Notes under the pieces: model-generated | The model's input: only the letters and a program-made list of their open reading frames with translations | The model's database searches: none | What the model was told of the DNA's origin: nothing | Program-made: the position numbers and the translations under genes | Shown here: in pieces, positions 2,576 through 16,461 of the stretch | Numbering within the stretch: position 1 is the first letter of the stretch | How the letters are laid out: the number at the start of each line of letters is the position of its first letter | From: Pseudomonadota bacterium | GTDB lineage: Bacteria > Pseudomonadota > Alphaproteobacteria > Acetobacterales > Acetobacteraceae | Direction: 5' to 3' | DNA: 64,000 nucleotides | Assembly: GCA_021818425.1 (NCBI GenBank) | Contig: JAKAEC010000004.1 | Span: forward strand, 1 to 64,000

Positions 2576-2638
2576 ATGATGCATGCCGTGAAGCAGGCTT
2601 TACGCGCCATTCAGGCGCGCGTGGCCGGTGATAGATGA
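2576..2638 (+). CDS. Putative 20-aa leader ORF (MMHAVKQALRAIQARVAGDR) overlapping the desaturase start (ATGA)
   Basis: AAGGA Shine-Dalgarno 5' of ATG at 2576; stop TGA 2636-2638 overlaps downstream ATG 2635. Confidence 0.4.
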   Translation: MMHAVKQALRAIQARVAGDR

Positions 2639-3642
2639 AAGCCGCTTCGCTGTTCCGCTACCCCGGCAGCGCCGGATACAACGTCGCGGGCTTGGCCTAT
2701 GCCATGTTCGGCTATGTGGGCGGTTTGCGTCTGATCACCCCCAGCAATCTGCTTTTAAACGTAGCGGGCACTGTGCTGCTGGCACACAGCCTCGTGGTCT
2801 GCGCCTATTTCATTCACGAATTCGCACATGGCACGGTGTTCCGCGCGGCGGCAAACAACGATCGGGGAGGCGAAGTTATGGCCTGGATCACTGGCGCGTG
2901 CTTTGCCTCGTATCACGGCTTGAAAGAAAAGCATTTGCGTCACCATGCGGAGCGAATGGATGTTGCAGAATTTGATTATCGAAAGATTCTACGTCGGGCT
3001 CCAACTTGGGCATGCAAGGCTGTACTGGCCTTGGAATGGGCCTATATTCCTGCGATAGAATTGCTCATGCACGGGCTGGTAGTGCAGGCACAGTATAAGG
3101 GCAGCGCCGCCATGCGCAGGCGGGCAAACAATCTGCTAGCCTCACGCATCAGCTTTTTTGTGCTGCTCGGCCTTGTCGCACCACGTGCCTTGGCCTGCTA
3201 CGCCGTCGCCTATTTGATGATGCTGCAGGTGCTGCGCTTCATGGACGCGTACCAGCATACATTTGACGTCTGTATTGCTTCCTCATCGTCCCCTGCATCA
3301 GACAATAAGTTGCGCGACCGGGCCTATGAACACGCCAACACATATAGCAACATTCTGTCTCTCTCCAACCCATATCTCAATCTGCTAACATTGAATTTTG
3401 CCTATCACAACGCGCACCACGCCCGCCCAGCCGCACCCTGGCACGAACTGCCCGCGCTGCATGAAAAGCTTTATGGCAGAGATCAGACGCAAGTGCTGAC
3501 AGCGCGAGAATTGCTAAGAAGCTATCACTGCAACCGCGTAAAGCGAATATTAGCCCCGGATTATGGTGAGGTCCACCCCGAGGGCGACAGGGCGCACGAT
3601 TTCCTGGGCGCCGTTGGCGTGTCCTTTCTCACGGCAATTTGA
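2635..3642 (+). CDS. Membrane fatty-acid desaturase / hydroxylase-like di-iron protein
   Basis: 335 aa; three histidine boxes HEFAH, HLRHH, HNAHH; multiple TM segments. Confidence 0.85.
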   Translation: MKAASLFRYPGSAGYNVAGLAYAMFGYVGGLRLITPSNLLLNVAGTVLLAHSLVVCAYFIHEFAHGTVFRAAANNDRGGEVMAWITGACFASYHGLKEKHLRHHAERMDVAEFDYRKILRRAPTWACKAVLALEWAYIPAIELLMHGLVVQAQYKGSAAMRRRANNLLASRISFFVLLGLVAPRALACYAVAYLMMLQVLRFMDAYQHTFDVCIASSSSPASDNKLRDRAYEHANTYSNILSLSNPYLNLLTLNFAYHNAHHARPAAPWHELPALHEKLYGRDQTQVLTARELLRSYHCNRVKRILAPDYGEVHPEGDRAHDFLGAVGVSFLTAI

Positions 3643-5030: not shown

Positions 5031-5045
5031 TGGCATCCTTTTTGC
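5031..5045 (+). promoter_or_regulatory. Putative sigma-54 (RpoN) promoter upstream of ABC transporter
   Basis: TGGCAT-CCTTT-TTGC; GG and GC doublets with exact 10-nt spacing; about 65 nt upstream of the SBP start. Confidence 0.55.
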
Positions 5046-5110
5046 GTTGTTATTTTTTGTAAACCGCTCCTTCTACAACGACTTTGCCTTCTGTTCATAA
5101 GAGGATTTTC

Positions 5111-6106
5111 ATGAAACGGGCTTTCAAACTGACATCCCTGCTATCCGCCGCAGCACTTTCGCTTCTAATCGGCGTGTCGGCTAAGGCTGAAACACCGTTG
5201 CGCATTGGCTTCAGCGACTGGCCCGGCTGGACCGGCTGGCAGATCGCCATCGACAAAGGCTGGTTCAAACAGGCCGGCGTTGACGTTGACATGCAGTGGT
5301 TTGACTATTCTGCGTCACTAGATGCCTTTTCTGCAGGCAAACTTGACGGCGATTTCGTTGCCACCAGCGATGCCTTGGCCGAAGGTGCGAACGGGACAAA
5401 GAATGAGCTGATCATGCTTACCGATTATTCAAGCGGTAACGACCAGATTTTAGCAAAGCCCGGCATTACCAACATCAAGCAACTCGCCGGGCAGAAGGTC
5501 GGCATTGAAGTCGGATTGCTCGAGCAGATGCTGCTCGACCATGCGCTAAAAGCCAACGGCATGACATTGAATTCGGTTCAACTCGTCAACACTGTTACAA
5601 ACAACACGCCGCAGGTACTGGCTTCCGGCGCTGTCGCCGCTATCGGCGTCTGGCAGCCAATTGCCGACCAGGCACGCCTCGCCTTACCTGGCGCGCACGC
5701 CATTTACACGTCGGCCCAGGCACCCGGGTTGATCTATGACGGACTGATTGTCACGCCGCAGAGCCTAGCCGAACGTCCGCAAGATTGGGCGAAGGTGATT
5801 AAGGTATGGTACCGCATCGAAGCCTACATCAACAATCCGAAAACTCATGCGGAAGCGTTGAAGATTATGGCCGCGCGCGACGGCGTATCGCCGCAAATCT
5901 ATCAGCGTTATGTGAAGGGCACACATCTGCTTAGCGTCGAGGAAGCCAAGGCCGCCTTCGTGCCTGGCCCTGGACTGAACTCCATCTACGGCTCCGATGC
6001 CAACGCCGATGCCTTCAACGTTCGCAACGGTGTTTATAAAACACCCCAGAATATCAAGGATTACATCAACAGCTCTTTGATAGACGCCTATAAGGAGAAC
6101 CATTAG
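5111..6106 (+). CDS. ABC transporter substrate-binding protein of urea-carboxylase-region (NitT/TauT-like) type
   Basis: Signal peptide MKRAFKLTSLLSAAALSLLIGVSAKA; PLRIGFSDWPGWTGWQIAIDKGWF..GVDVDMQWFDY..SLDAF resembles periplasmic proteins next to urea carboxylases; ORF opens at 5084 but 5111 ATG has the SD and signal peptide. Confidence 0.85.
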   Translation: MKRAFKLTSLLSAAALSLLIGVSAKAETPLRIGFSDWPGWTGWQIAIDKGWFKQAGVDVDMQWFDYSASLDAFSAGKLDGDFVATSDALAEGANGTKNELIMLTDYSSGNDQILAKPGITNIKQLAGQKVGIEVGLLEQMLLDHALKANGMTLNSVQLVNTVTNNTPQVLASGAVAAIGVWQPIADQARLALPGAHAIYTSAQAPGLIYDGLIVTPQSLAERPQDWAKVIKVWYRIEAYINNPKTHAEALKIMAARDGVSPQIYQRYVKGTHLLSVEEAKAAFVPGPGLNSIYGSDANADAFNVRNGVYKTPQNIKDYINSSLIDAYKENH

Positions 6107-7122
6107 TGCTGAATGCGTTGGAGATCGCGGGCACCAAACCGGTCCTCTCCGAAACTGGTGACGCGGTGCCAGGACAATGGTTCCGGGTCCGCGCGCCGTT
6201 ATCGCGGCGGCTGCGAATACTCCTTGCCGTTTTCTCCTTCCTGCTACCGCTCGCGGTTTGGTCCGCCGTAAGCTACGTTCCGTTCATTTGGCATCCGGAT
6301 ATGCTGATCTCAAACCCCGGTGATGTCGATTACCTTATGCCCGGCATGCGCGTGAAAAAGGCGACATTTGCCTTGGAAATCGCCAACGCTAAGGCCAACC
6401 ACGCAGCGCCCCCTCAGGGCATACCATGCAACCCAGTTTATCTGCCGGCACCAGGCGAAGTGCTGAAGGCATTCTACACTTCGTTTACCACCCCACCACG
6501 GGATCAGAATGGATTATGGCTACATCAGAGCCTTTGGCAAAGCATCCAGACAATTTTTTGGGGCTTCGTGATCTCCTCGCTTATCGGCGTACCGCTTGGA
6601 ATACTTTGCGGATCGCATAGCGGAGTGGCTAAACTTGTTGAGCCATTCATAGAGTTCTTCCGCTATCTCCCCGCCCCGGCCTTCGGCACTCTGGCAGTGG
6701 CAGTGCTTGGCATCTATGCTGGACCAAAGATTGCCATCATTGTCATCGGTACGCTGTTTCAGCAAATCCTGATCATCGCCAATACGACCCGTAAGGCGGA
6801 CTTCGCGCTGGTGGAAGCAGCCCTCACGCTGGGTACGCGCAACCTACGACTTCTTACCAGCGTCATCATTCCCAGCGTGCTGCCGGACCTCTACCGGGAC
6901 CAAAGAATTCTACTCGGCTGGGCCTGGACATATCTAATTGTGGCCGAGTTAATCGGTGCCACCAGCGGAATTTCGTTATTCATCACTCAGCAATCGCGCT
7001 ATCAGCATTACGCCAATGTCTACGCAGCCATCGCGATGATCGGCATTCTGGGACTGGGTACAGATTTGGTTCTAGCCGCCCTCGGACGCAAACTCTTCCC
7101 CTGGGATAAGGCCGCCGCATGA
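6106..7122 (+). CDS. ABC transporter permease (NitT/TauT-like)
   Basis: 338 aa, GTG start; BPD_transp_1 features, EAALTLGTRNLRLLTSVIIPSVLPDLY. Confidence 0.88.
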   Translation: MLNALEIAGTKPVLSETGDAVPGQWFRVRAPLSRRLRILLAVFSFLLPLAVWSAVSYVPFIWHPDMLISNPGDVDYLMPGMRVKKATFALEIANAKANHAAPPQGIPCNPVYLPAPGEVLKAFYTSFTTPPRDQNGLWLHQSLWQSIQTIFWGFVISSLIGVPLGILCGSHSGVAKLVEPFIEFFRYLPAPAFGTLAVAVLGIYAGPKIAIIVIGTLFQQILIIANTTRKADFALVEAALTLGTRNLRLLTSVIIPSVLPDLYRDQRILLGWAWTYLIVAELIGATSGISLFITQQSRYQHYANVYAAIAMIGILGLGTDLVLAALGRKLFPWDKAAA

Positions 7123-8018
7123 GCTCCAGTATGATCTCCTATCTCGAACAGCCTATCGATGTGCAGGCGCGTCTGGCCCGGCTCAAGGCTCGAAATATCA
7201 TTCTCAGCGTTGAAGATCTTAGCAAGAGCTTTGCCTCGAGCAAGGACGAAATTATCGCTCTTGAATCGCTGTCTTTTAGTACCCATCAGCGTGAATTTCT
7301 TTGCGTGATCGGTCCGTCTGGCTGTGGCAAATCTACCCTGGCGCGTATTCTTGCAGGGCTAGAGCCCGCCAGCGGCGGCGTGGTGCGACTGGATGGAAGG
7401 CCCGTGCAAGGCCCAGGACGCGAGCGCGGCATGGTTTTTCAGGGCTATACGCTGTTTCCTTGGCTCAGTGTGCGGCGCAATGTGATGTTTGGCTTGCGCA
7501 TGGCCAATATCAGCAAAGCGGAAGCGCAGCGCCAAGCAGATGAATGGCTGGCACTGGTGGGGTTAGAGAAGTTTGCCGATGCGTACCCGCATCAGCTCTC
7601 GGGGGGCATGAAACAGCGTGTGGCAATCATCCGAGCGTTGGTGAACCGCCCACGCGTGCTGCTGATGGACGAGCCGTTCTCGGCCCTTGACGCGCAAACT
7701 CGCCAGCGCATGCAGGCTTATTTGCTAGAAATTTGGCGAAAGGTGGATATCACCATCATCTTCATCACCCATGATCTGGATGAAGCCGTGTTTCTGGCAG
7801 ACCGTATCCTGGTTCTGGACGCACACCCCGGCCGCTTGCGGGAAATGATCGAGGTCCCCTTACCCCGACCGCGCGACGCCGCACAACTCGCGAGCCCGGC
7901 TTTCATCGCAACCAAGGCCCGGCTGGAAACGCTGATCCATGGCACCGCAACTAATGGGGAGGATGAACCTTACCCCACCGTTCCCTTGCTAACGAATGTA
8001 AGTGACGAAGTGGAATAG
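7119..8018 (+). CDS. ABC transporter ATP-binding protein
   Basis: Walker A GPSGCGKST, signature LSGGMKQRVAI, Walker B VLLMDEPFSALD; overlaps the permease stop. Confidence 0.95.
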   Translation: MSSSMISYLEQPIDVQARLARLKARNIILSVEDLSKSFASSKDEIIALESLSFSTHQREFLCVIGPSGCGKSTLARILAGLEPASGGVVRLDGRPVQGPGRERGMVFQGYTLFPWLSVRRNVMFGLRMANISKAEAQRQADEWLALVGLEKFADAYPHQLSGGMKQRVAIIRALVNRPRVLLMDEPFSALDAQTRQRMQAYLLEIWRKVDITIIFITHDLDEAVFLADRILVLDAHPGRLREMIEVPLPRPRDAAQLASPAFIATKARLETLIHGTATNGEDEPYPTVPLLTNVSDEVE

Positions 8019-8021
8019 CTT

Positions 8022-9806
8022 CTACTTAACCTGAGACGCCCCCCAGTAGGCGCGCCAGCCGCCATGAGCGGTAATGTCCGCCGCCCCTTCTAACGCATAA
8101 GCCTCACACAGGAAGCCGGGATGCACGGAACCGTCCTCCAGCGTCACGCGGCCGATGACCATTGGGGCGGGCAGAGTGGCCACAAAATGGCCAAAGGCGG
8201 ACGGACTGAGGCTCCACAATTCGACCGCGATGCCGGCACCAGAAAAACCGGGCGTTTGCGCTAGCCCAGGCTTGGGCGGGTTCGTGGCCAGGGCGAAGAG
8301 CCGGTAGTCTGGTGCTGTGAAAGCCGGGCGGATGAGCCGGGCACCTAGACTGGTGAGTTCATGGTTTAGCACCATGCCAGAGAGATGGGCACCAGCGACT
8401 ACGAGGCTGACCTCATTCGACGGCCCTTCGTAACGCCCGTAAGGCTCAGCCCGGGTGAGGCCCGCCCCAGCGCCCAGGGCATTGTGCAATTTATCGGCGC
8501 AGACCGCCAATGAGGCTTCCGAGAAGGCAGGGCCGATGAGGGTAACGCCAAAAGGCAAGCCATCTGGCTTGAACCCGGCCGGCAGGGCGATGGCGGCCAT
8601 ATCCAACAAATTCACGAAATTGGTGTAGAGGCCGAGGGTTGAATTGTGCTTTACAGGCTCGGCCAACATTTCTTCAATGGTGAAAATGGTAGGAGCCGTA
8701 GGCAGCAGCAGCGCGTCGCATTTGACAAACTCCGCCATTGTGAGTTGACGCAGGGCCTGGACCTTGTAGATATCGTCAAATGCATCAGCGGCTGAGAATT
8801 TATGGCCGCCTTCAATAATGGCGCGGACCACGGGGAATACATCATCCGCATGACGCCGCATGAAAGCACGAGTGGCAGCGGTGCGCTCAGCCAAGAAGGC
8901 GCCCCCATAGAGCAGCGCAGCAATATCACGGAAGGGTGCATAATCGATCTCCACCAATTCCCACCCCAAAGCTTTGGCCTTGCCCAGGGCGGCTTCGTAG
9001 AGGGCGAAGGCTGCTACGTCTCCGGCAAAATCCTTGTCTTTTCCAGCCAACACGCCCAGGCGTGGAACGGCAGGCAGAGGATGGTTGGCGGGGGGACGGG
9101 AATAGGCGTCTGACGCATCATAACCTTCAGCGGCACTTAGCACCGCCATCGCATCCGCCACGCAATTAGCGAAGATGGAAATGCAGTCCAGGCTCTTGCA
9201 GGCGGGCACAACACCGGTGGCAGAGAGGCGGCCGATCGAGGGTTTAAGCCCAATGAGGTTGTTGAAGGCGGCGGGTACACGACCCGAGCCGGCGGTGTCC
9301 GTGCCCAGGGAGAAGGCAGCTAGGCCAGCACCCACGGCTACTGCCGAGCCGGAAGAGGAGCCGCCGGATACATAAGCGGTATTGAACACCGAGCGCGGGG
9401 CGCCATAAGGGGAGCGCGTACCATTCAGCCCAGTGGCAAACTGGTCCAGATTTGCCTTGCCTATAAGCAAGGCGCCCGCGGCGCGCAGGCGGGCGATAGT
9501 GGTGGCGTCCTGCTCTGGTATATAGGCAAAGGCTGGGCAGGCCGCGGTGGTGGGCAGACCCGTGACGTCTATATTATCCTTGACCACGTACGGGATGCCG
9601 TACAGCGGCTTACCCGCCGAGCCTTCCAATTCAAGTTTCGCTGCTTCGGCCAGCAGATTTTCCGCTTTTACCAGAGAGATGAAGACCGCTTTGTCAGAAT
9701 AGGTGGCGATGCGCGCCAGAAAGGTTTTCACCAGCGCCGTAGGCGTTATCGTTCCTGCTTCGTAACCAGACCGGATGGCCGAGAATTCAAGAAGATCTAG
9801 GGTCAT
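8022..9806 (-). CDS. atzF: Allophanate hydrolase
   Basis: 594 aa; amidase-signature domain (GSSSGSAVAVGAGLAAFSLGTDTAGSGRVPAAFNNLIGLKPS) plus C-terminal allophanate hydrolase domain. Confidence 0.92.
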   Translation of the reverse strand: MTLDLLEFSAIRSGYEAGTITPTALVKTFLARIATYSDKAVFISLVKAENLLAEAAKLELEGSAGKPLYGIPYVVKDNIDVTGLPTTAACPAFAYIPEQDATTIARLRAAGALLIGKANLDQFATGLNGTRSPYGAPRSVFNTAYVSGGSSSGSAVAVGAGLAAFSLGTDTAGSGRVPAAFNNLIGLKPSIGRLSATGVVPACKSLDCISIFANCVADAMAVLSAAEGYDASDAYSRPPANHPLPAVPRLGVLAGKDKDFAGDVAAFALYEAALGKAKALGWELVEIDYAPFRDIAALLYGGAFLAERTAATRAFMRRHADDVFPVVRAIIEGGHKFSAADAFDDIYKVQALRQLTMAEFVKCDALLLPTAPTIFTIEEMLAEPVKHNSTLGLYTNFVNLLDMAAIALPAGFKPDGLPFGVTLIGPAFSEASLAVCADKLHNALGAGAGLTRAEPYGRYEGPSNEVSLVVAGAHLSGMVLNHELTSLGARLIRPAFTAPDYRLFALATNPPKPGLAQTPGFSGAGIAVELWSLSPSAFGHFVATLPAPMVIGRVTLEDGSVHPGFLCEAYALEGAADITAHGGWRAYWGASQVK

Positions 9807-12800
9807 CAGTGCGCCTCCGAGGCAATCACGCCAAGGCGTTGCCCGGCGCGGATGGCTTGACCTGGAACGGCGCTGAGCGAGGAGATGCGGCCTGAGGAGA
9901 CAGCCCGCACTCGCACTTCCATCTTCATCGATTCCAAAATCATCACCACATCCCCGCGCTGCACCAGGGCGCCGGGTTCGGCTAGGATTTGCCAGATGCT
10001 GCCAGGCACCGGGGCGGCGATGGCACGGCTGCCGACGGGCAAAGGCATTTCCTCAGGTTCTGGGGCGATGTCCGGCTCCTCGAAACTATTCAGCCCTTTT
10101 AGGGCCCAATCCTCCCGCTCGGCAGCGAAGGCTGCACGTTGGCGGGTTTGAAAAGTAACAATGCTCTCAGCGTTTTCGGCGCAGAAGGCATGGTAGTCAC
10201 GTAGCGAGAACTGGCTTTCCTCGATACGCAGCTGATATTTGCCCTGAGGGAAAGCGTCCCTAGCTTCCAGAAGCTCTTCTTCGGAAACTTCTATGAACCG
10301 GATCCGGTCAAAATGCCGCAGCAGCCAGGGTTTGCCGGGTTCAAAGGGCGGTGTCTGGCGGTGCGTGTTCCAGACCTGTACGGTGCGGCCGAAAAGCTGG
10401 TAGCCGCCGGGTCCTTCCATGCCGTAGACGCACATATAGGCGCCACCGATGCCGACAGCGTTCTGAGGAGTCCAGGGTCGGGCAGGATTATATTTGGTGG
10501 TAACGAGGCGATGGCGAGGATCGTATGGCGTGGCGACGGGGGCGCCGAGATAAACATCGCCCAGCCCGAGCACAACGTAGGAGGCATCGAAGATGATGCG
10601 TTTCACGTCCTCAATGCTGTCCAGCCCGTTGATGCGGCGGATGAATTCGATGTTGTCCGGGCACCAAGGGGCATTGGGGCGAGTGGTCTCCTGATATTTG
10701 CGCATGGATAGGCGAATTTGGCTGTCGTTCCAGGAAAGCGGCAGGTAAACCGTGCGAGCCCTCACCACCATGTCTTCAGGTACTGGCATGGTGGGAAGAA
10801 GTTTTTCCATCGCCGCCAGCATTTTCATTGGTGTGGTCTGGGTAGAATCGAAATGAACCTGCAATGATCTGATGCCGGGAGTAAGGTCGACGACGCCCGG
10901 CAGCTTTGCTGCTTCCAGCGCGTCACGTAGTGCCTGGGCACGCAGGCGGAGTTCAAAATCCAGTTTCATTTCGCCGAATTCAATAAGAATGTCTTCATCG
11001 CCAGCGCGACGGACCACAACATCTTTGTGGGTAGAGATGATGGCGGGGGCGGTATCGGCACGGACGAAGCGGAGTTTGTCGCCTGGCTTGAGTTGGCCAA
11101 GTTTCCAGCGGTCTGCTTTGGTGACCACGGCAGGGCAGACGAAGCCGCCGAGAGAGGGCCCATCCGGGCCTAGCAGGATCGGCATGTCACCCGTGAAGTC
11201 TATGGCACCGATGGCGTAGGCGTTGTCATGTATGTTGGAAGGGTGCAGACCCGCCTCCCCGCCATCCCTCCGCGCCCATTCGGGCTTGGGACCGATGAGA
11301 CGCACCCCCGTGCGGGCGGAGTTGTGGTGCACTTCGTAGGTGGCCGCGAATATGGTAGAAATATCTTTATCCGTGAAAAAATCGGGTGCGCCGTGAGGGC
11401 CGTAGAGTACGGCAATATCCCAGTCGTGGAAGAAGGCGGGCGGTGTGAGCGGCGGTGTCGCCGGTACTGGGACCGACGGATTGAAGCGCAGGGTATCGCC
11501 CGCACGCAAGGCGTTGCCGGTGGCGCCGCCGAAGCCTCCGAGGGTGAAAGTGGCGGTAGAACCTAGATAGTCAGGAGCGCGGAAGCCGCCGGAGATGGCG
11601 AGGTAGGTGCGATGACCTGGGCCTTCGACCACTCCAAGCTCCAGCACTTGCCCCGCCTTCACGGACACGGGCTGGTGATAAGGGATGGGGGTTTCATCCA
11701 ACAGAGCAGGCATATGCGCGCCAGAGAGGGCGATGAGCGTGTCGGCAAAAAAGCGCAGAGTAGGCCCAGTGTGGGTAAGTTCCAGCGCCACCGCATCCAG
11801 CCTGTTACCAAGCAACGCGTTAGCGTGGTTGTGGTGGAGATCGTCCATCGGCCCGCTAGGGGGGACGCCAACTTCCCAGTAACCCAAACGCCCCGGCAGA
11901 CTTTGCAGGCTGGACTGCGCACCAGGGTCCAGCACCTCCGCAGCGTATGGCATGAAGGCAAAATTGGTAAGGCTACTTGTGGTCATTTCACCCGCGATAA
12001 AATCTGGCAGGGCTAGGATGGCCTGCAGATAATCGAGATTGGTCTCGATACCGAAAATCTCGCTCTGCTTCAGACCGGCCTGCAGATTGGCCAGCGCCTC
12101 CGCACGGCTGGGACCACTAGCAATGAATTTCGCCAGCATCGGATCGTAGAAAGGTGAAACGTCCGTACCGGCCTCTACCCACTTCTCCACGCGTAACGAT
12201 GGGCCGGGCTTAAAGGCGGTGATCATGCCGCTGGAGGGTGCAAAATTGTTGCCTGGATTTTCCGCGTAGATGCGAACTTCAATAGCCGCACCCTGCGGCT
12301 TGAGGGTCGCTTGTGCGGGAAGGGTAAGAGTGCCAGCTGCTTGCTCGATCATCCAGCGGACGAAGTCAACACTATAAATTTCTTCCGTCACGCCATGTTC
12401 GACCTGTAGGCGCGTGTTCATTTCCAGGAAGTAGAACTCTTGTACCTCGGCGTCGTAAATGAACTCAACTGTGCCCGCGGATTCATATTGCACGGATGAG
12501 GCAAGCGCGACGGCAGCGTTCTGCATCGCGGCCAAGGTGGCATCGAACAAATTGGGGGCGGGCGTTTCCTCCACCACTTTCTGGTTTCGGCGTTGGAGAG
12601 AACAGTCGCGCGCGCCAAAGGCGACTACACCACCCTTGCCATCACCGAAAATCTGCACCTCGACATGGCGGGCACGGACGACGTATTTTTCAAGGAACAA
12701 GGCGGCATTGCCGAAATTATTCTCTGCGAGGCGAGCGATGCTATCATATTTGTCCCCCAGCTCTACATTGTTGTGGCATAGCACCATACCAATACCACCG

Positions 12801-13285
12801 CCTCCGGCGCTGCTTTTCAGCATCACTGGGTAGGTGATGCGTTTGGCCTGGGCCAAAGCTTCCTCAAGCGTGGAGAGAACGGAGGTGCCGGGCAGCATGG
12901 GAACGCCTGCTTTTTGCGCAAGGTCTCGAGCGGTATGTTTCATCCCGAAACCCCGCAAATGTTCAGGCCGGGGACCAATGAATTTGATGCCAGAAGCGGC
13001 AAGACGTTCGGCGAACTCCACGCGCTCGGAGAGGAAACCATAGCCCGGATGCACGGCCTGCGCGCCCGTTTCCTGGCAAGCTCTGATGATGGCGTCGATG
13101 TTCAGATAGCTCTCGGCCGCTGATGGCGGGCCTATGCGTAACGCTTCATCCGCCGCCAGCACGTTGGGAGAAAAACGGTCGGCATCTGAATATACCGCCA
13201 CAGATCTAATGCCCATATCTCGCAGAGTGCGGCAGACACGTCCCAAAATTTCGCCACGATTGGCGATAAGAACTTTACTGAACAT
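9806..13285 (-). CDS. Biotin-dependent urea carboxylase / guanidine carboxylase
   Basis: 1159 aa; biotin carboxylase domain (MFSKVLIANRGEI...), AHS1/AHS2-type carboxyltransferase region, biotinyl motif ILESMKMEVRV; guanidine-I riboswitch upstream favours guanidine as substrate. Confidence 0.95.
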   Translation of the reverse strand: MFSKVLIANRGEILGRVCRTLRDMGIRSVAVYSDADRFSPNVLAADEALRIGPPSAAESYLNIDAIIRACQETGAQAVHPGYGFLSERVEFAERLAASGIKFIGPRPEHLRGFGMKHTARDLAQKAGVPMLPGTSVLSTLEEALAQAKRITYPVMLKSSAGGGGIGMVLCHNNVELGDKYDSIARLAENNFGNAALFLEKYVVRARHVEVQIFGDGKGGVVAFGARDCSLQRRNQKVVEETPAPNLFDATLAAMQNAAVALASSVQYESAGTVEFIYDAEVQEFYFLEMNTRLQVEHGVTEEIYSVDFVRWMIEQAAGTLTLPAQATLKPQGAAIEVRIYAENPGNNFAPSSGMITAFKPGPSLRVEKWVEAGTDVSPFYDPMLAKFIASGPSRAEALANLQAGLKQSEIFGIETNLDYLQAILALPDFIAGEMTTSSLTNFAFMPYAAEVLDPGAQSSLQSLPGRLGYWEVGVPPSGPMDDLHHNHANALLGNRLDAVALELTHTGPTLRFFADTLIALSGAHMPALLDETPIPYHQPVSVKAGQVLELGVVEGPGHRTYLAISGGFRAPDYLGSTATFTLGGFGGATGNALRAGDTLRFNPSVPVPATPPLTPPAFFHDWDIAVLYGPHGAPDFFTDKDISTIFAATYEVHHNSARTGVRLIGPKPEWARRDGGEAGLHPSNIHDNAYAIGAIDFTGDMPILLGPDGPSLGGFVCPAVVTKADRWKLGQLKPGDKLRFVRADTAPAIISTHKDVVVRRAGDEDILIEFGEMKLDFELRLRAQALRDALEAAKLPGVVDLTPGIRSLQVHFDSTQTTPMKMLAAMEKLLPTMPVPEDMVVRARTVYLPLSWNDSQIRLSMRKYQETTRPNAPWCPDNIEFIRRINGLDSIEDVKRIIFDASYVVLGLGDVYLGAPVATPYDPRHRLVTTKYNPARPWTPQNAVGIGGAYMCVYGMEGPGGYQLFGRTVQVWNTHRQTPPFEPGKPWLLRHFDRIRFIEVSEEELLEARDAFPQGKYQLRIEESQFSLRDYHAFCAENAESIVTFQTRQRAAFAAEREDWALKGLNSFEEPDIAPEPEEMPLPVGSRAIAAPVPGSIWQILAEPGALVQRGDVVMILESMKMEVRVRAVSSGRISSLSAVPGQAIRAGQRLGVIASEAH

Positions 13286-13291
13286 GGCTGC

Positions 13292-13906
13292 CTACTCGCT
13301 GACAATAATCTGGATGGCTGTGGGGGTGAAACCGTTGCAGGGGTTATTCACCTGCGGGCAGTTGGAAACGAGCACCAGCACGTCCATTTCCGCCTGCAAT
13401 TCCACATAGCCTCCGGGCTTAGAAACGCCGTCATCGACCGTGAGCTCTCCATTGGTATTGATGGGTACATTCATGAAGAAATTCACGTTGGAAACGAGAT
13501 CTCGCTTGCTCATACCGTATTTGGCAAGCTCGACGATAAAATTCTCCCGGCAGGAATGCATGAAACGTGTCTCATTCCCGAAGCGAACTGTATTACTCTC
13601 GCAGGAGCAGGCACCAGCGCAGGTGTCGTGAAAACCACAGCTGTCGGCAACAAGTTTCATCATCGGACGACATTCGTTGGAGAGCAACGTGGAACCGGTG
13701 GAAAGATCGTAGCGTCCACCATGCTCAACTTGAGCTGCCAACGTGTCCTGGGCGGAGTAGCGCTCTGTCGTATCATGTGAATTGTAGAAGAGCGCATCCA
13801 CCGCTTGCTGACTTTCAAGGTCAATAATACGCAGTCTCTGGCCCCTTTTCAGAAGAGTGGAATAGGGTGCGCCAGCAGGAACGTGAGTGTCAGAAATAAT
13901 GATCAT
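13292..13906 (-). CDS. Urea carboxylase-associated protein 2 (DUF1989; carboxyguanidine deiminase subunit-like)
   Basis: 204 aa; Cys-rich motif DSCGFHDTCAGACSCESNTVRFGNETRFMHSCRENF; operon position. Confidence 0.88.
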   Translation of the reverse strand: MIIISDTHVPAGAPYSTLLKRGQRLRIIDLESQQAVDALFYNSHDTTERYSAQDTLAAQVEHGGRYDLSTGSTLLSNECRPMMKLVADSCGFHDTCAGACSCESNTVRFGNETRFMHSCRENFIVELAKYGMSKRDLVSNVNFFMNVPINTNGELTVDDGVSKPGGYVELQAEMDVLVLVSNCPQVNNPCNGFTPTAIQIIVSE

Positions 13907-14685
13907 TTAGCGAAATACCGGTCGTTATTGATGAAACCACGCGCAGCTTCCTCAGTGAATTGGCGACAGAGATCATGAGCGCTGACTGTCGGGGCGCGCC
14001 AAGCGATATAAGAGATGGGGCCGGTTGCCTCCTGCACCGGGCTCAGCGCGTGCGGGGTATTGGAGATGGTAATCAGCAGATCCATCTCCGCGCGCAGCTC
14101 AACCATGGCACCCTGCGGCGGATTGTGACGCCAGCGTATGATACCTTGATTGTCTACCGCGACGGGGGAAAACAGAGAGATAGCGGGAGCGACATCGCGT
14201 CGGGAGAGACCAAATTTGGCGGCAGCACTGCGCAGATTGTCCCGCCCATTGCGGCCTTGCGTTTGCATGGGGCCATTAGGGCCGACAATGGAATCATGCC
14301 CGGCACCTGTATCTGCGACGATAGAGGCAAGCACGCGCCCCATGTCAGAAAAGAGCACGCGGCCGGTGGTGAGGTTGGTGGTCCATTGCAACTTGGTCGT
14401 GTCGCCGGCGTTGAAACGTTCGGAGGTATCTTCCGCGTTCCACATGAATAGGGTAGCACCCGGCGTACCGGATAAATTGGCGATGCGGACGGCGGCACCG
14501 CGCTGCAGACGTAAGTTCACATACCAACCGGGAGGAATGGCATCTTCTAAAAAAACATCTTCTGGCTTGATGTCTACGAATTTTGTTTCAGGCTTTGGGG
14601 CTATGGCACGGGCGTGAGCGGCCTCCTGCAAGGCTTCGTAGCGTTGGCGGTATTGCGCGGGGGTGAGTTTGTCGAGTTCAAGCAT
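13903..14685 (-). CDS. Urea carboxylase-associated protein 1 (DUF1989; carboxyguanidine deiminase subunit-like)
   Basis: 260 aa; DUF1989-type VLFSDMGRVLASIVADTGAGHDS...NGRDNLRSAAAKFGLSRRDVAPAISLF; overlaps UAAP2. Confidence 0.87.
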   Translation of the reverse strand: MLELDKLTPAQYRQRYEALQEAAHARAIAPKPETKFVDIKPEDVFLEDAIPPGWYVNLRLQRGAAVRIANLSGTPGATLFMWNAEDTSERFNAGDTTKLQWTTNLTTGRVLFSDMGRVLASIVADTGAGHDSIVGPNGPMQTQGRNGRDNLRSAAAKFGLSRRDVAPAISLFSPVAVDNQGIIRWRHNPPQGAMVELRAEMDLLITISNTPHALSPVQEATGPISYIAWRAPTVSAHDLCRQFTEEAARGFINNDRYFAK

Positions 14686-14725
14686 TCGCTTGTCTCCACT
14701 GCAGTATGTTTGAAAAGTTCGACAT
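14678..14725 (-). CDS. Putative 15-aa leader peptide ORF (MSNFSNILQWRQANA) in guanidine operon leader
   Basis: GGAGGG SD 6 nt before ATG; stop TGA overlaps the first codons of the UAAP1 gene. Confidence 0.4.
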   Translation of the reverse strand: MSNFSNILQWRQANA

Positions 14726-14766
14726 CAGAATCCCTCCGTTGAATAACTACGCTTCAACGATACGAA

Positions 14767-14811
14767 GGATACGGCTGAGAGCTGATGCGTATCCCGCGCA
14801 TCCTTACTCTC
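14767..14811 (-). promoter_or_regulatory. Riboswitch expression platform with mutually exclusive hairpins
   Basis: (a) GAGAG(14807-14811)/CTCTC(14777-14781) plus GATGCG(14797-14802)/CGCATC(14784-14789) versus (b) GGATACG(14788-14794)/CGTATCC(14767-14773); the two share bases. Confidence 0.6.
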
Positions 14812-14910
14812 CCGGGCTTTTGTCCCGCCGTGCATCATGCGGATATCTCCCACATGACCGCCGCTCTCGGACCAGACACTGGATGAATATCCAGCCGGAA
14901 CCCTAGCGGC
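14807..14910 (-). ncRNA. Guanidine-I riboswitch (ykkC class) aptamer
   Basis: Minus strand reads GCTAGGGTTCCGGC...TCTGGTCCGAGAGC...CACGGCGGGACAAAAGCCCGGGAGAG, carrying the conserved ykkC elements CTAGGGTTCCG, TGGTCCGAGAG and ACGG..GGGA.AAAAGCCCGGGAGAG. Confidence 0.96.
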
Positions 14911-14938
14911 CTTTCCAATTATCTTGGCAATTTATTCT

Positions 14939-14955
14939 GGCAATTATCGTGCCAA
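14939..14955 (-). promoter_or_regulatory. Putative sigma-54 (RpoN) promoter of guanidine operon
   Basis: TTGGCACGATAATTGCC; matches YTGGCACG-N4-TTGC with GG-N10-GC; predicted start about 14928 lies just 5' of the aptamer. Confidence 0.75.
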
Positions 14956-15101
14956 TCCCCAACTCTTTATAGACCGGGGATAGCGATGCCAACATGCTGC
15001 TGCGTGCTTAAAAAAAAGCCCTGCAAGTCCATTTTTCCATCAAATATCGCCCTCATGTATCAGCTTCCGCAAAGCTGGTCTGGGTGGCGCGTCTTTCGGC
15101 T

Positions 15102-16361
15102 CTAAAACAGCCCCGCGCCAGAGAGACCGCCATAAACGCCTAGCCCGGCCGTAGTTGCCGAAAGCAGAATGGCGAGTCCGGCGTACCAGCCACGCAGCCG
15201 CATTTCAGCAGGCAGAGCCTTTAGTCCCAGCATCACCAGAAAGCCGAGCACCAGCGGTAGCAACAGCGCGTTCATTACCTCAACGGCAATATTCAAAATG
15301 ACAAGATTCGGCACCACCGCCACCAGCACAGCACCACACACCAGGCACGCCGCGTAGACGCCATAAAACCATTTAGCCCGGAAGGGGTGGTCCTCCAGCG
15401 ACCGACGATAGCCGGTAACCTCACCAAGCCCCCAGGCAAGTGCCAACGAGGCAACAATTGAAGCAACCAGCCCCGCCCCCAATACGCCGATGCCAAAAAC
15501 AAGTTTGCCCATGGTGACACCGAGATACGGAGTGAGCGCTGCCGTTATATCCCCAACGGTATTGAGGCTGGCGTTGGGGTTTTTCAGACCGATCGTGGCC
15601 GCAGTTGCGATCAGCACCGCCGCCATCACTAGCTGGGTAACAACTGAGCCGATGGCGGTATCCAACCGAGCATAGCGGAAATCCGCGAGGGACAATTTTT
15701 TGTCGGCGATGGCAGATTGTTGGTAGAAAATCATCCAGGGCATGATCACCGCGCCGATATTGGCGGCGACGAGGTAAAGGTAGTCCTGGTTACCCAAGGC
15801 AGGCTGCAGCATCTGAGCAGCGATTTGATGGCCGTTCGGCTTCGAGAGGAAAGCTATGACGAAAAAAACGAATTCGAACAGCCCCAACGCAATCGCCACC
15901 CGCTCCACTCGACGGTAAGAGCCCGTGAGAGCCACAACAAGCAGAAACAGCACAGATAGGCTCAGCGTGGCGTCACGCGGTACGCCATAGAGCTCGCCGA
16001 CACCGGCCACGCCAGAAAATTCAGACAGCAGCGCTCCGACCGTAGCCACCGCCAGCCCCCCGGCGGAAAGCCAAGCCCACCCCTCGCCAAACGTATCACG
16101 AATCAGCTCTCCGTGGCCTTTGCCGGTGAAGATGCCGAGCCGGACCGTAAGCTCTTGCACAACGTACAGGATGGGGATGAGCAAGAACTGCAGCAGTAAC
16201 AGCCGGTAACCCCAAGCCACGCCAGATTGAGAAGCAGTAATGATGCTGCCCACCTCGGTATCGGCCAGCATGACAACGAGCCCAGGTCCAAATACGGACA
16301 AAAAAGGCAGGGCGGCACGGCGAGCGGGCGAAGCAGACTGAGGCAAGACGGTTCCTGACAT
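15102..16361 (-). CDS. Nramp-family divalent metal transporter (non-canonical motifs)
   Basis: About 420 aa; FGPGLVVMLADTEVGSIITASQSGVAWGYRLLLLQFLLIPILY; multi-TM; ORF opens at 16421 but ATG 16361 fits family N-terminus better. Confidence 0.85.
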   Translation of the reverse strand: MSGTVLPQSASPARRAALPFLSVFGPGLVVMLADTEVGSIITASQSGVAWGYRLLLLQFLLIPILYVVQELTVRLGIFTGKGHGELIRDTFGEGWAWLSAGGLAVATVGALLSEFSGVAGVGELYGVPRDATLSLSVLFLLVVALTGSYRRVERVAIALGLFEFVFFVIAFLSKPNGHQIAAQMLQPALGNQDYLYLVAANIGAVIMPWMIFYQQSAIADKKLSLADFRYARLDTAIGSVVTQLVMAAVLIATAATIGLKNPNASLNTVGDITAALTPYLGVTMGKLVFGIGVLGAGLVASIVASLALAWGLGEVTGYRRSLEDHPFRAKWFYGVYAACLVCGAVLVAVVPNLVILNIAVEVMNALLLPLVLGFLVMLGLKALPAEMRLRGWYAGLAILLSATTAGLGVYGGLSGAGLF

Positions 16362-16366
16362 GCAAT

Positions 16367-16381
16367 TGAGAATAATTATCA
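16367..16381 (-). promoter_or_regulatory. Putative Fur-family operator
   Basis: TGAGAATAATTATCA, one mismatch to the 7-1-7 Fur box TGATAATnATTATCA, immediately upstream of the Nramp start. Confidence 0.6.
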
Positions 16382-16461
16382 ATAAGCGAGGCGGCGTAAT
16401 GCAGCCAGCCTTTCCTGTCAATGCAGAGCCGCGCCCCAGCGCCTGCCGGCGAGGGACCTAT

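Follow-up and report, generated by a model that had tools for sequence, protein, structure and literature searches.

How is a guanidine assimilation operon switched on in a cell that may or may not be short of nitrogen? Guanidine riboswitches have so far been treated mainly as ligand sensors, and the natural role of guanidine is debated. In the 64 kb stretch of DNA analysed here (the window), which comes from an apparently acid-loving bacterium of the Acetobacteraceae, a guanidine-I riboswitch is preceded by a sequence resembling a sigma-54 promoter, and this arrangement raises several questions. Does the sequence act as a promoter? Is it a peculiarity of this locus? Which activator would work on it, and what would a promoter of this kind add to a riboswitch?

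The riboswitch and its operon are typical (Table 1). The aptamer scores well above the Rfam cut-off of 63 bits and is followed by genes for UAAP1, UAAP2, a urea/guanidine carboxylase and allophanate hydrolase, the known guanidine assimilation set; judging from the riboswitch, the carboxylase would be specific for guanidine. The window thus shares both the aptamer family and the operon content of guanidine-I (ykkC) carboxylase operons. It differs from them in that its ABC transporter lies outside the operon, nearby, with a -24/-12-like site of its own.

Table 1. Coordinates of the promoter, leader and operon features in the window
Feature	Position	Strand	Basis
Weak candidate NtrC site GGGCTTTTTTTTAAGCA, 67 nt upstream of the -24 box	15005..15021	minus	held-out p = 0.22
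Sigma-54 -24/-12 promoter element TTGGCACGATAATTGCC	14939..14955	minus (14955-14939)	sequence, shuffles, conservation
Predicted transcription start, +1 = G, 12 nt after the -12 C	14928	minus	inferred from the sigma-54 spacing rule
Guanidine-I riboswitch aptamer (RF00442)	14807..14917	minus	91.6 bits, full-length match
Expression platform	14727..14806	minus	folding, prediction
Predicted anti-anti-SD GGGATACG	14795-14788	minus	folding
CGTATCC, partner of the anti-anti-SD	14773-14767	minus	folding
Predicted anti-SD ATCCTTC	14770-14764	minus	folding
SD GGAGGG	14737-14732	minus	folding
15-codon leader ORF MSNFSNILQWRQANA, stop overlapping the UAAP1 start (ATGCTTGA)	14678..14725	minus	sequence
UAAP1, urea-amidolyase-associated protein	13903..14685	minus	TIGR03425, 225 bits
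UAAP2, urea-amidolyase-associated protein	13292..13906	minus	TIGR03424, 308 bits
Urea/guanidine carboxylase	9806..13285	minus	TIGR02712, 1677 bits
Allophanate hydrolase	8022..9806	minus	TIGR02713, 749 bits

Several neighbouring genes deserve mention. The ABC transporter (5084-8018; urea/sulfonate-type binding protein, permease and ATPase) runs convergently towards the guanidine operon behind a second intergenic -24/-12-like site, TGGCATCCTTTTTGC (5031-5045, plus strand), where there is no riboswitch; the transporter that the operon lacks may be this one. A membrane fatty-acid-desaturase-like protein (PF00487) is encoded at 2635-3642 (plus strand). Since an apparent homologue is the first gene after a sigma-54 and guanidine-I leader in another locus (L014), this protein may act on a guanidine compound. 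Other genes that come first behind such leaders encode a type III glutamine synthetase family protein (TIGR03105; L018, Acidocella sp. genome G283), an unexpected riboswitch target, calcineurin-like phosphoesterases (L026, L035) and an AiiA-like lactonase-fold protein (L033). A possible counterpart of the phosphoesterase and lactonase-fold genes is NtrC-dependent BCAS0267a of Burkholderia cenocepacia, whose annotation is cyclic-nucleotide phosphodiesterase. Immediately upstream of the promoter is an NRAMP-family transporter gene (15102-16421, minus strand), and in Caballeronia a gene annotated as a divalent metal cation transporter (L214 1675-2970) is likewise found upstream of the guanidine operon.

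The promoter element and its conservation

It was originally predicted that a near-consensus sigma-54 promoter with exact GG-N10-GC spacing precedes the riboswitch and that transcription starts from it a few nucleotides before the aptamer. The element is indeed present: GG at -24 and GC at -12 are separated by ten bases in a TGGCAC..TTGC context, and the sole mismatch to YTGGCACG-N4-TTGCW among the fixed positions is the last one (C, not A/T). Exact TGGCAC-N5-TTGC occurs only three times in the window, and the two copies elsewhere (51236, plus strand; 56890, minus strand) are within or opposite long ORFs. Shuffling of the 100 nt that precede the aptamer core at this locus gave a 10/10 match in 3 of 20,000 shuffles; the match is good, but the motif itself is short. 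The predicted start falls 11 nt before the Rfam aptamer match and 17 nt before the first P1 pair at 14911, as had been anticipated, so the leader would essentially be the riboswitch.

Is the pairing of promoter and aptamer found elsewhere? Guanidine-I riboswitches were gathered in three genome draws, at the levels of family, class and phylum, giving 109 riboswitches from 88 proteobacterial genomes; three loci were omitted from the counts (L090, no core found; L095, weak match; L176, duplicate). Each was scored by its best match to ten fixed positions (TGGCAC-N5-TTGC) upstream of the conserved core GCTAGGGTTC, with a threshold of at least 9/10. Such a site exists within 100 nt upstream of the core in 75 of the 109 loci, and in 81 when the range is extended to 112 nt; the latter are spread over 27 of 34 families, 41 of 58 genera and 67 of 88 genomes. 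Named carriers include Acidocella facilis, A. aromatica, Rhizobium johnstonii 3841, Sinorhizobium sp. B11, Peteryoungia desertarenae, Burkholderia stagnalis and Pantoea agglomerans; the site of Caballeronia sp. M1242 reaches 8/10, and in Thioclava no such site precedes the guanidine-I riboswitch. By the same threshold no site was found on the opposite strand (0/109), 200-500 nt upstream (0/327) or before guanidine-II (0/30), TPP (0/28) and glycine (0/30) riboswitches, and dinucleotide shuffles reached it in 0.57% of cases. The remaining 28 riboswitches, some of them in rpoN-bearing genomes, have no 9/10 site, and thus the pairing is common and not obligatory. As read from these sequences, the -24/-12 element together with the guanidine-I aptamer is a conserved module, beyond the local feature for which it was originally taken.

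The distance between promoter and aptamer is also informative. In the 81 loci with a site of at least 9/10, a gap of either 14-32 nt, in a group that takes in all Acetobacteraceae having the site, or at least 49 nt separates the -12 GC from the core, and it is never shorter than 14 nt. Because P1 starts 4 nt ahead of the core and transcription would begin 12 nt after the -12 C, no predicted start lies more than 1 nt inside P1; a gap of 15, as in some Acetobacteraceae, would place it exactly at the first P1 base pair. Random placement would often cut the aptamer, and the observed limit therefore provides independent support for the -24/-12 site setting the start. The gap in the window is 32 nt, compared with 19-21 in the nearest relatives, apparently because a unit of 12-13 nt is repeated: a three-copy tandem repeat lies between promoter and aptamer (14916-14956). 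A second -24/-12 element created by this repeat was ruled out, as the GG is not at the right place.

These comparisons bear on two other explanations. Since the window site looks imperfectly palindromic and is situated inside the tandem repeat, TTGGCA-N7-TGCCA could be read as a repressor operator or a chance palindrome with no promoter function. The relatives, however, retain the TGGCAC and TTGC letters and neither the palindrome nor the repeat, on which ground we reject this reading; the positional limit relative to the aptamer and the specificity controls also argue against it, and it is scarcely credible. Alternatively, a housekeeping promoter or read-through from the upstream NRAMP gene could provide the main transcription, with the -24/-12 element minor or a relic and the riboswitch the sole control. 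In favour of this, divergent guanidine-I pairs in some Acetobacteraceae lack a good -24/-12 site, and some of them have TTGACC-like boxes. No sigma-70-like promoter match was found at 14600-15250 of the window, however, and a relic would decay, whereas the site is conserved across genus and phylum at distances that the aptamer limits. This makes sole control by the riboswitch very unlikely, and the -24/-12 element is taken below as the sigma-54 promoter of the operon.

Two groups of loci without a good site are of interest in their own right. In the divergent pairs (L009/L029, L010/L030, L012/L031 and L017/L034), a carboxylase is read one way and an APC-type permease the other, and rpoN is absent or low-scoring in their genomes. 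In rpoN-bearing genomes of one genus (g143), the guanidine-I leaders of three loci (L076, L082 and L087) share a conserved TGTAATTGTATACAGAG that may be an operator of GntR type.

RpoN, NtrC and candidate enhancers

A sigma-54 promoter requires its sigma factor and an activator. The genome of the window, a 2.1 Mb draft that is 86% complete and whose named close relatives are Acidocella, encodes rpoN (PF04552, 220.7 bits). Among 80 riboswitch genomes tested, rpoN is missing in three, none of which has the site, as against 58 of 75 scored rpoN-bearing genomes (Fisher p = 0.015). The sigma-54 reading is thus supported on four grounds: phylum-wide conservation with clean controls, rpoN in the genome, rpoN-less genomes without the site, and the start-site limit.

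Which activator would act on this promoter? Two strong sigma-54 activators are encoded in tandem in the window's genome, NtrC with GAFTGA (ELFGHERGAFTGA) and an NtrX-like protein without it, so that NtrC is the only GAFTGA-bearing activator detected. The GAFTGA check was needed because Caulobacter NtrC, which lacks GAFTGA, acts on sigma-70 promoters (PMC12421884). Further TGGCAY-N5-TTGC sites lie between genes elsewhere in this genome, ahead of amtB (two in tandem), rpoN, dusB-ntrBC and an ABC transporter, a set typical of an Ntr regulon. In the single-contig relatives G100, G157 and G200, NtrC and NtrX are likewise the sole strong activator matches, their sites being only 8/10.

Enhancer-like sequences are enriched upstream of the -24 box in the locus set. 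At 80-100 nt from the box, 16 matches of at least 9/12 to the E. coli NtrC consensus form a peak where 0.8 would be expected, and the palindrome YGCC-N9-GGCR occurs 34 times where 4.2 are expected. A 17-bp palindromic profile with TGC-N11-GCA geometry was cross-validated between Acetobacteraceae and other families: trained on the latter and applied at p <= 0.05, it identified 12 of the 21 loci from Acetobacteraceae (1.1 expected), and the reverse test identified 37 of 69 (3.5 expected). It also gives a top match in the amtB promoter of the window's own genome (CGCCTATAATTTAGGCA). Taken one per genus, the palindromes are phased with the helix (p = 0.0001). The window's own best candidate, GGGCTTTTTTTTAAGCA, is not significant alone in the held-out test, though it lies close to the mean helical phase of the relatives (about 1.2 bp away); stronger sites stand in L007, L021 and L070. 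The window's best match to the E. coli consensus, 7/12, was discarded as chance level. The original prediction had named NtrC as the activator and proposed an upstream search for an NtrC-type enhancer. NtrC control is supported by the activator set, by the enriched, phased and cross-validated palindromes of the relatives and by the ntrC dependence in B. cenocepacia described below, the candidate site in the window itself being weak.

The weakness of that site favours another possibility, namely that the sigma-54 promoter is served by a different enhancer-binding protein, sensing guanidine, carbon or redox state, and that something other than nitrogen is the second signal. In some relatives there are 8-14 matches to PF00158, several of which are full sigma-54 activators, and at 86% completeness another activator could be missing from the set detected here. 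Against this, the window's genome shows NtrC alone with GAFTGA, the complete relatives have only NtrC and NtrX, NtrC-type sites recur helically phased across the set, and the B. cenocepacia ntrC data point the same way. A different activator is therefore unlikely, and NtrC is the activator that we consider further.

NtrC-like sites are also found where the promoter is not. Among loci without a -24/-12 site, 5 of 18 reach palindrome p <= 0.05, including both rpoN-less genomes of one family (f23), where the palindromes lie upstream of the guanidine-I leaders (L171, L178). Genomes of this family with rpoN absent or divergent have no good -24/-12 site and carry NtrC-like sites in at least two of three cases. 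By analogy with the report on Caulobacter, we conjecture that NtrC acts there with a housekeeping sigma factor.

A proposed two-signal gate on guanidine assimilation

How could the leader RNA complete the control? Folding of the window's leader suggests two states. In one, the aptamer tail GGGAGAG is free and pairs with CUCUC, and an AUCCUUC/GAGGGAU hairpin shuts the SD; in the other, the tail is held, and pairing of GGGAUACG with CGUAUCC leaves the SD open. The alternative pairing partners recur in four relatives (L036-L039), with a paired change in L039 (GGGGUAC/GUACCC). By folding energy the ON structure is clear in the window and L038 only; L036, L037 and L039 favour the closed form in the model, which makes the energies ambiguous in three of the five leaders. 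No terminator-like site was found in the window's leader. This folding model suggests that guanidine frees the ribosome-binding site (translational ON type). The UAAP1 start is overlapped by the leader ORF, of which L036, L037 and L038 retain the frame and the overlap but not the amino acids; this suggests translational coupling.

The proposed sequence of events is as follows: under nitrogen limitation, NtrC~P would switch on the RpoN promoter, and transcription of the UAAP1-UAAP2-guanidine carboxylase-allophanate hydrolase operon would begin a few nucleotides ahead of the aptamer. Without guanidine, the 3' tail of the aptamer would pair downstream and the anti-SD hairpin would close the ribosome-binding site. 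With guanidine, the tail would be held in the aptamer, GGGATACG would pair with its CGTATCC partner and the site would open. Expression of the operon would then require a shortage of nitrogen together with the presence of guanidine. What can be read directly from the sequences is the promoter element with its conservation and spacing, rpoN, the GAFTGA-bearing NtrC, the aptamer, the operon and the NtrC-type sites in relatives. The AND logic, which follows from the layout of promoter and riboswitch, is inferred, as are the start site, NtrC binding in the window and the direction of the switch. Taken together, a gate requiring both nitrogen limitation and guanidine very probably controls this operon. 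The broader reading, in which one sigma-54/NtrC-aptamer module operates across Proteobacteria, nitrogen status licensing the transcript and guanidine its use, and the nitrogen input is kept where sigma-54 has been lost, is one that we favour with some reserve.

Each half of this arrangement has known counterparts. With the Ntr regulon the window and its genome share the -24/-12 element, a GAFTGA-bearing NtrC, NtrC-type palindromes in the locus set and the amtB, rpoN and dusB-ntrBC sites; unlike the usual Ntr genes, which have no riboswitch, the window's transcript meets a ligand gate in its own leader. In a study of B. cenocepacia H111 (PMC5491218), an ntrC mutant under nitrogen limitation has lowered urea carboxylase (-6.0), and a related ABC-transporter protein and an aminomethyltransferase are lost or down; equivalent genes are thus ntrC-dependent, like the control proposed here. 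The genes are given there as urea carboxylase and related proteins. A relative, B. stagnalis (L213), carries two guanidine-I aptamers, and TGGCACGCATCTCGC lies upstream of the one on the UAAP1 side. Tandem PRPP/guanine riboswitches (PMC5912903) also place two inputs on one leader, but both are RNA aptamers, whereas the window combines a sigma-54 enhancer promoter with an aptamer. In Vreelandella boliviensis, growth on ammonium in place of guanidine lowers the proteins of the riboswitch operon by about three orders of magnitude (PMC12508155); this comparison agrees with a two-input gate but does not separate the two inputs. The papers covered on guanidine-I carboxylase operons do not treat the promoter: the words 'RpoN', 'NtrC' and 'sigma' are absent from a 2025 review (PMC12186494). 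A literature search, with subscription papers mostly outside its coverage, found no paper linking a guanidine riboswitch with sigma-54, RpoN or NtrC. Promoter type and riboswitch are each known; that the two regularly go together has apparently not been described in the literature searched.

An NtrC/sigma-54 promoter before most of the surveyed assimilation-type riboswitches would mean that guanidine is handled as a last-resort nitrogen source. It is predicted that riboswitch reporters assayed in ammonium-rich media or placed behind foreign promoters miss half of the control. Nitrogen status and guanidine would be its two knobs in culturable species such as Acidocella facilis, A. aromatica, Rhizobium johnstonii 3841 and Pantoea agglomerans.
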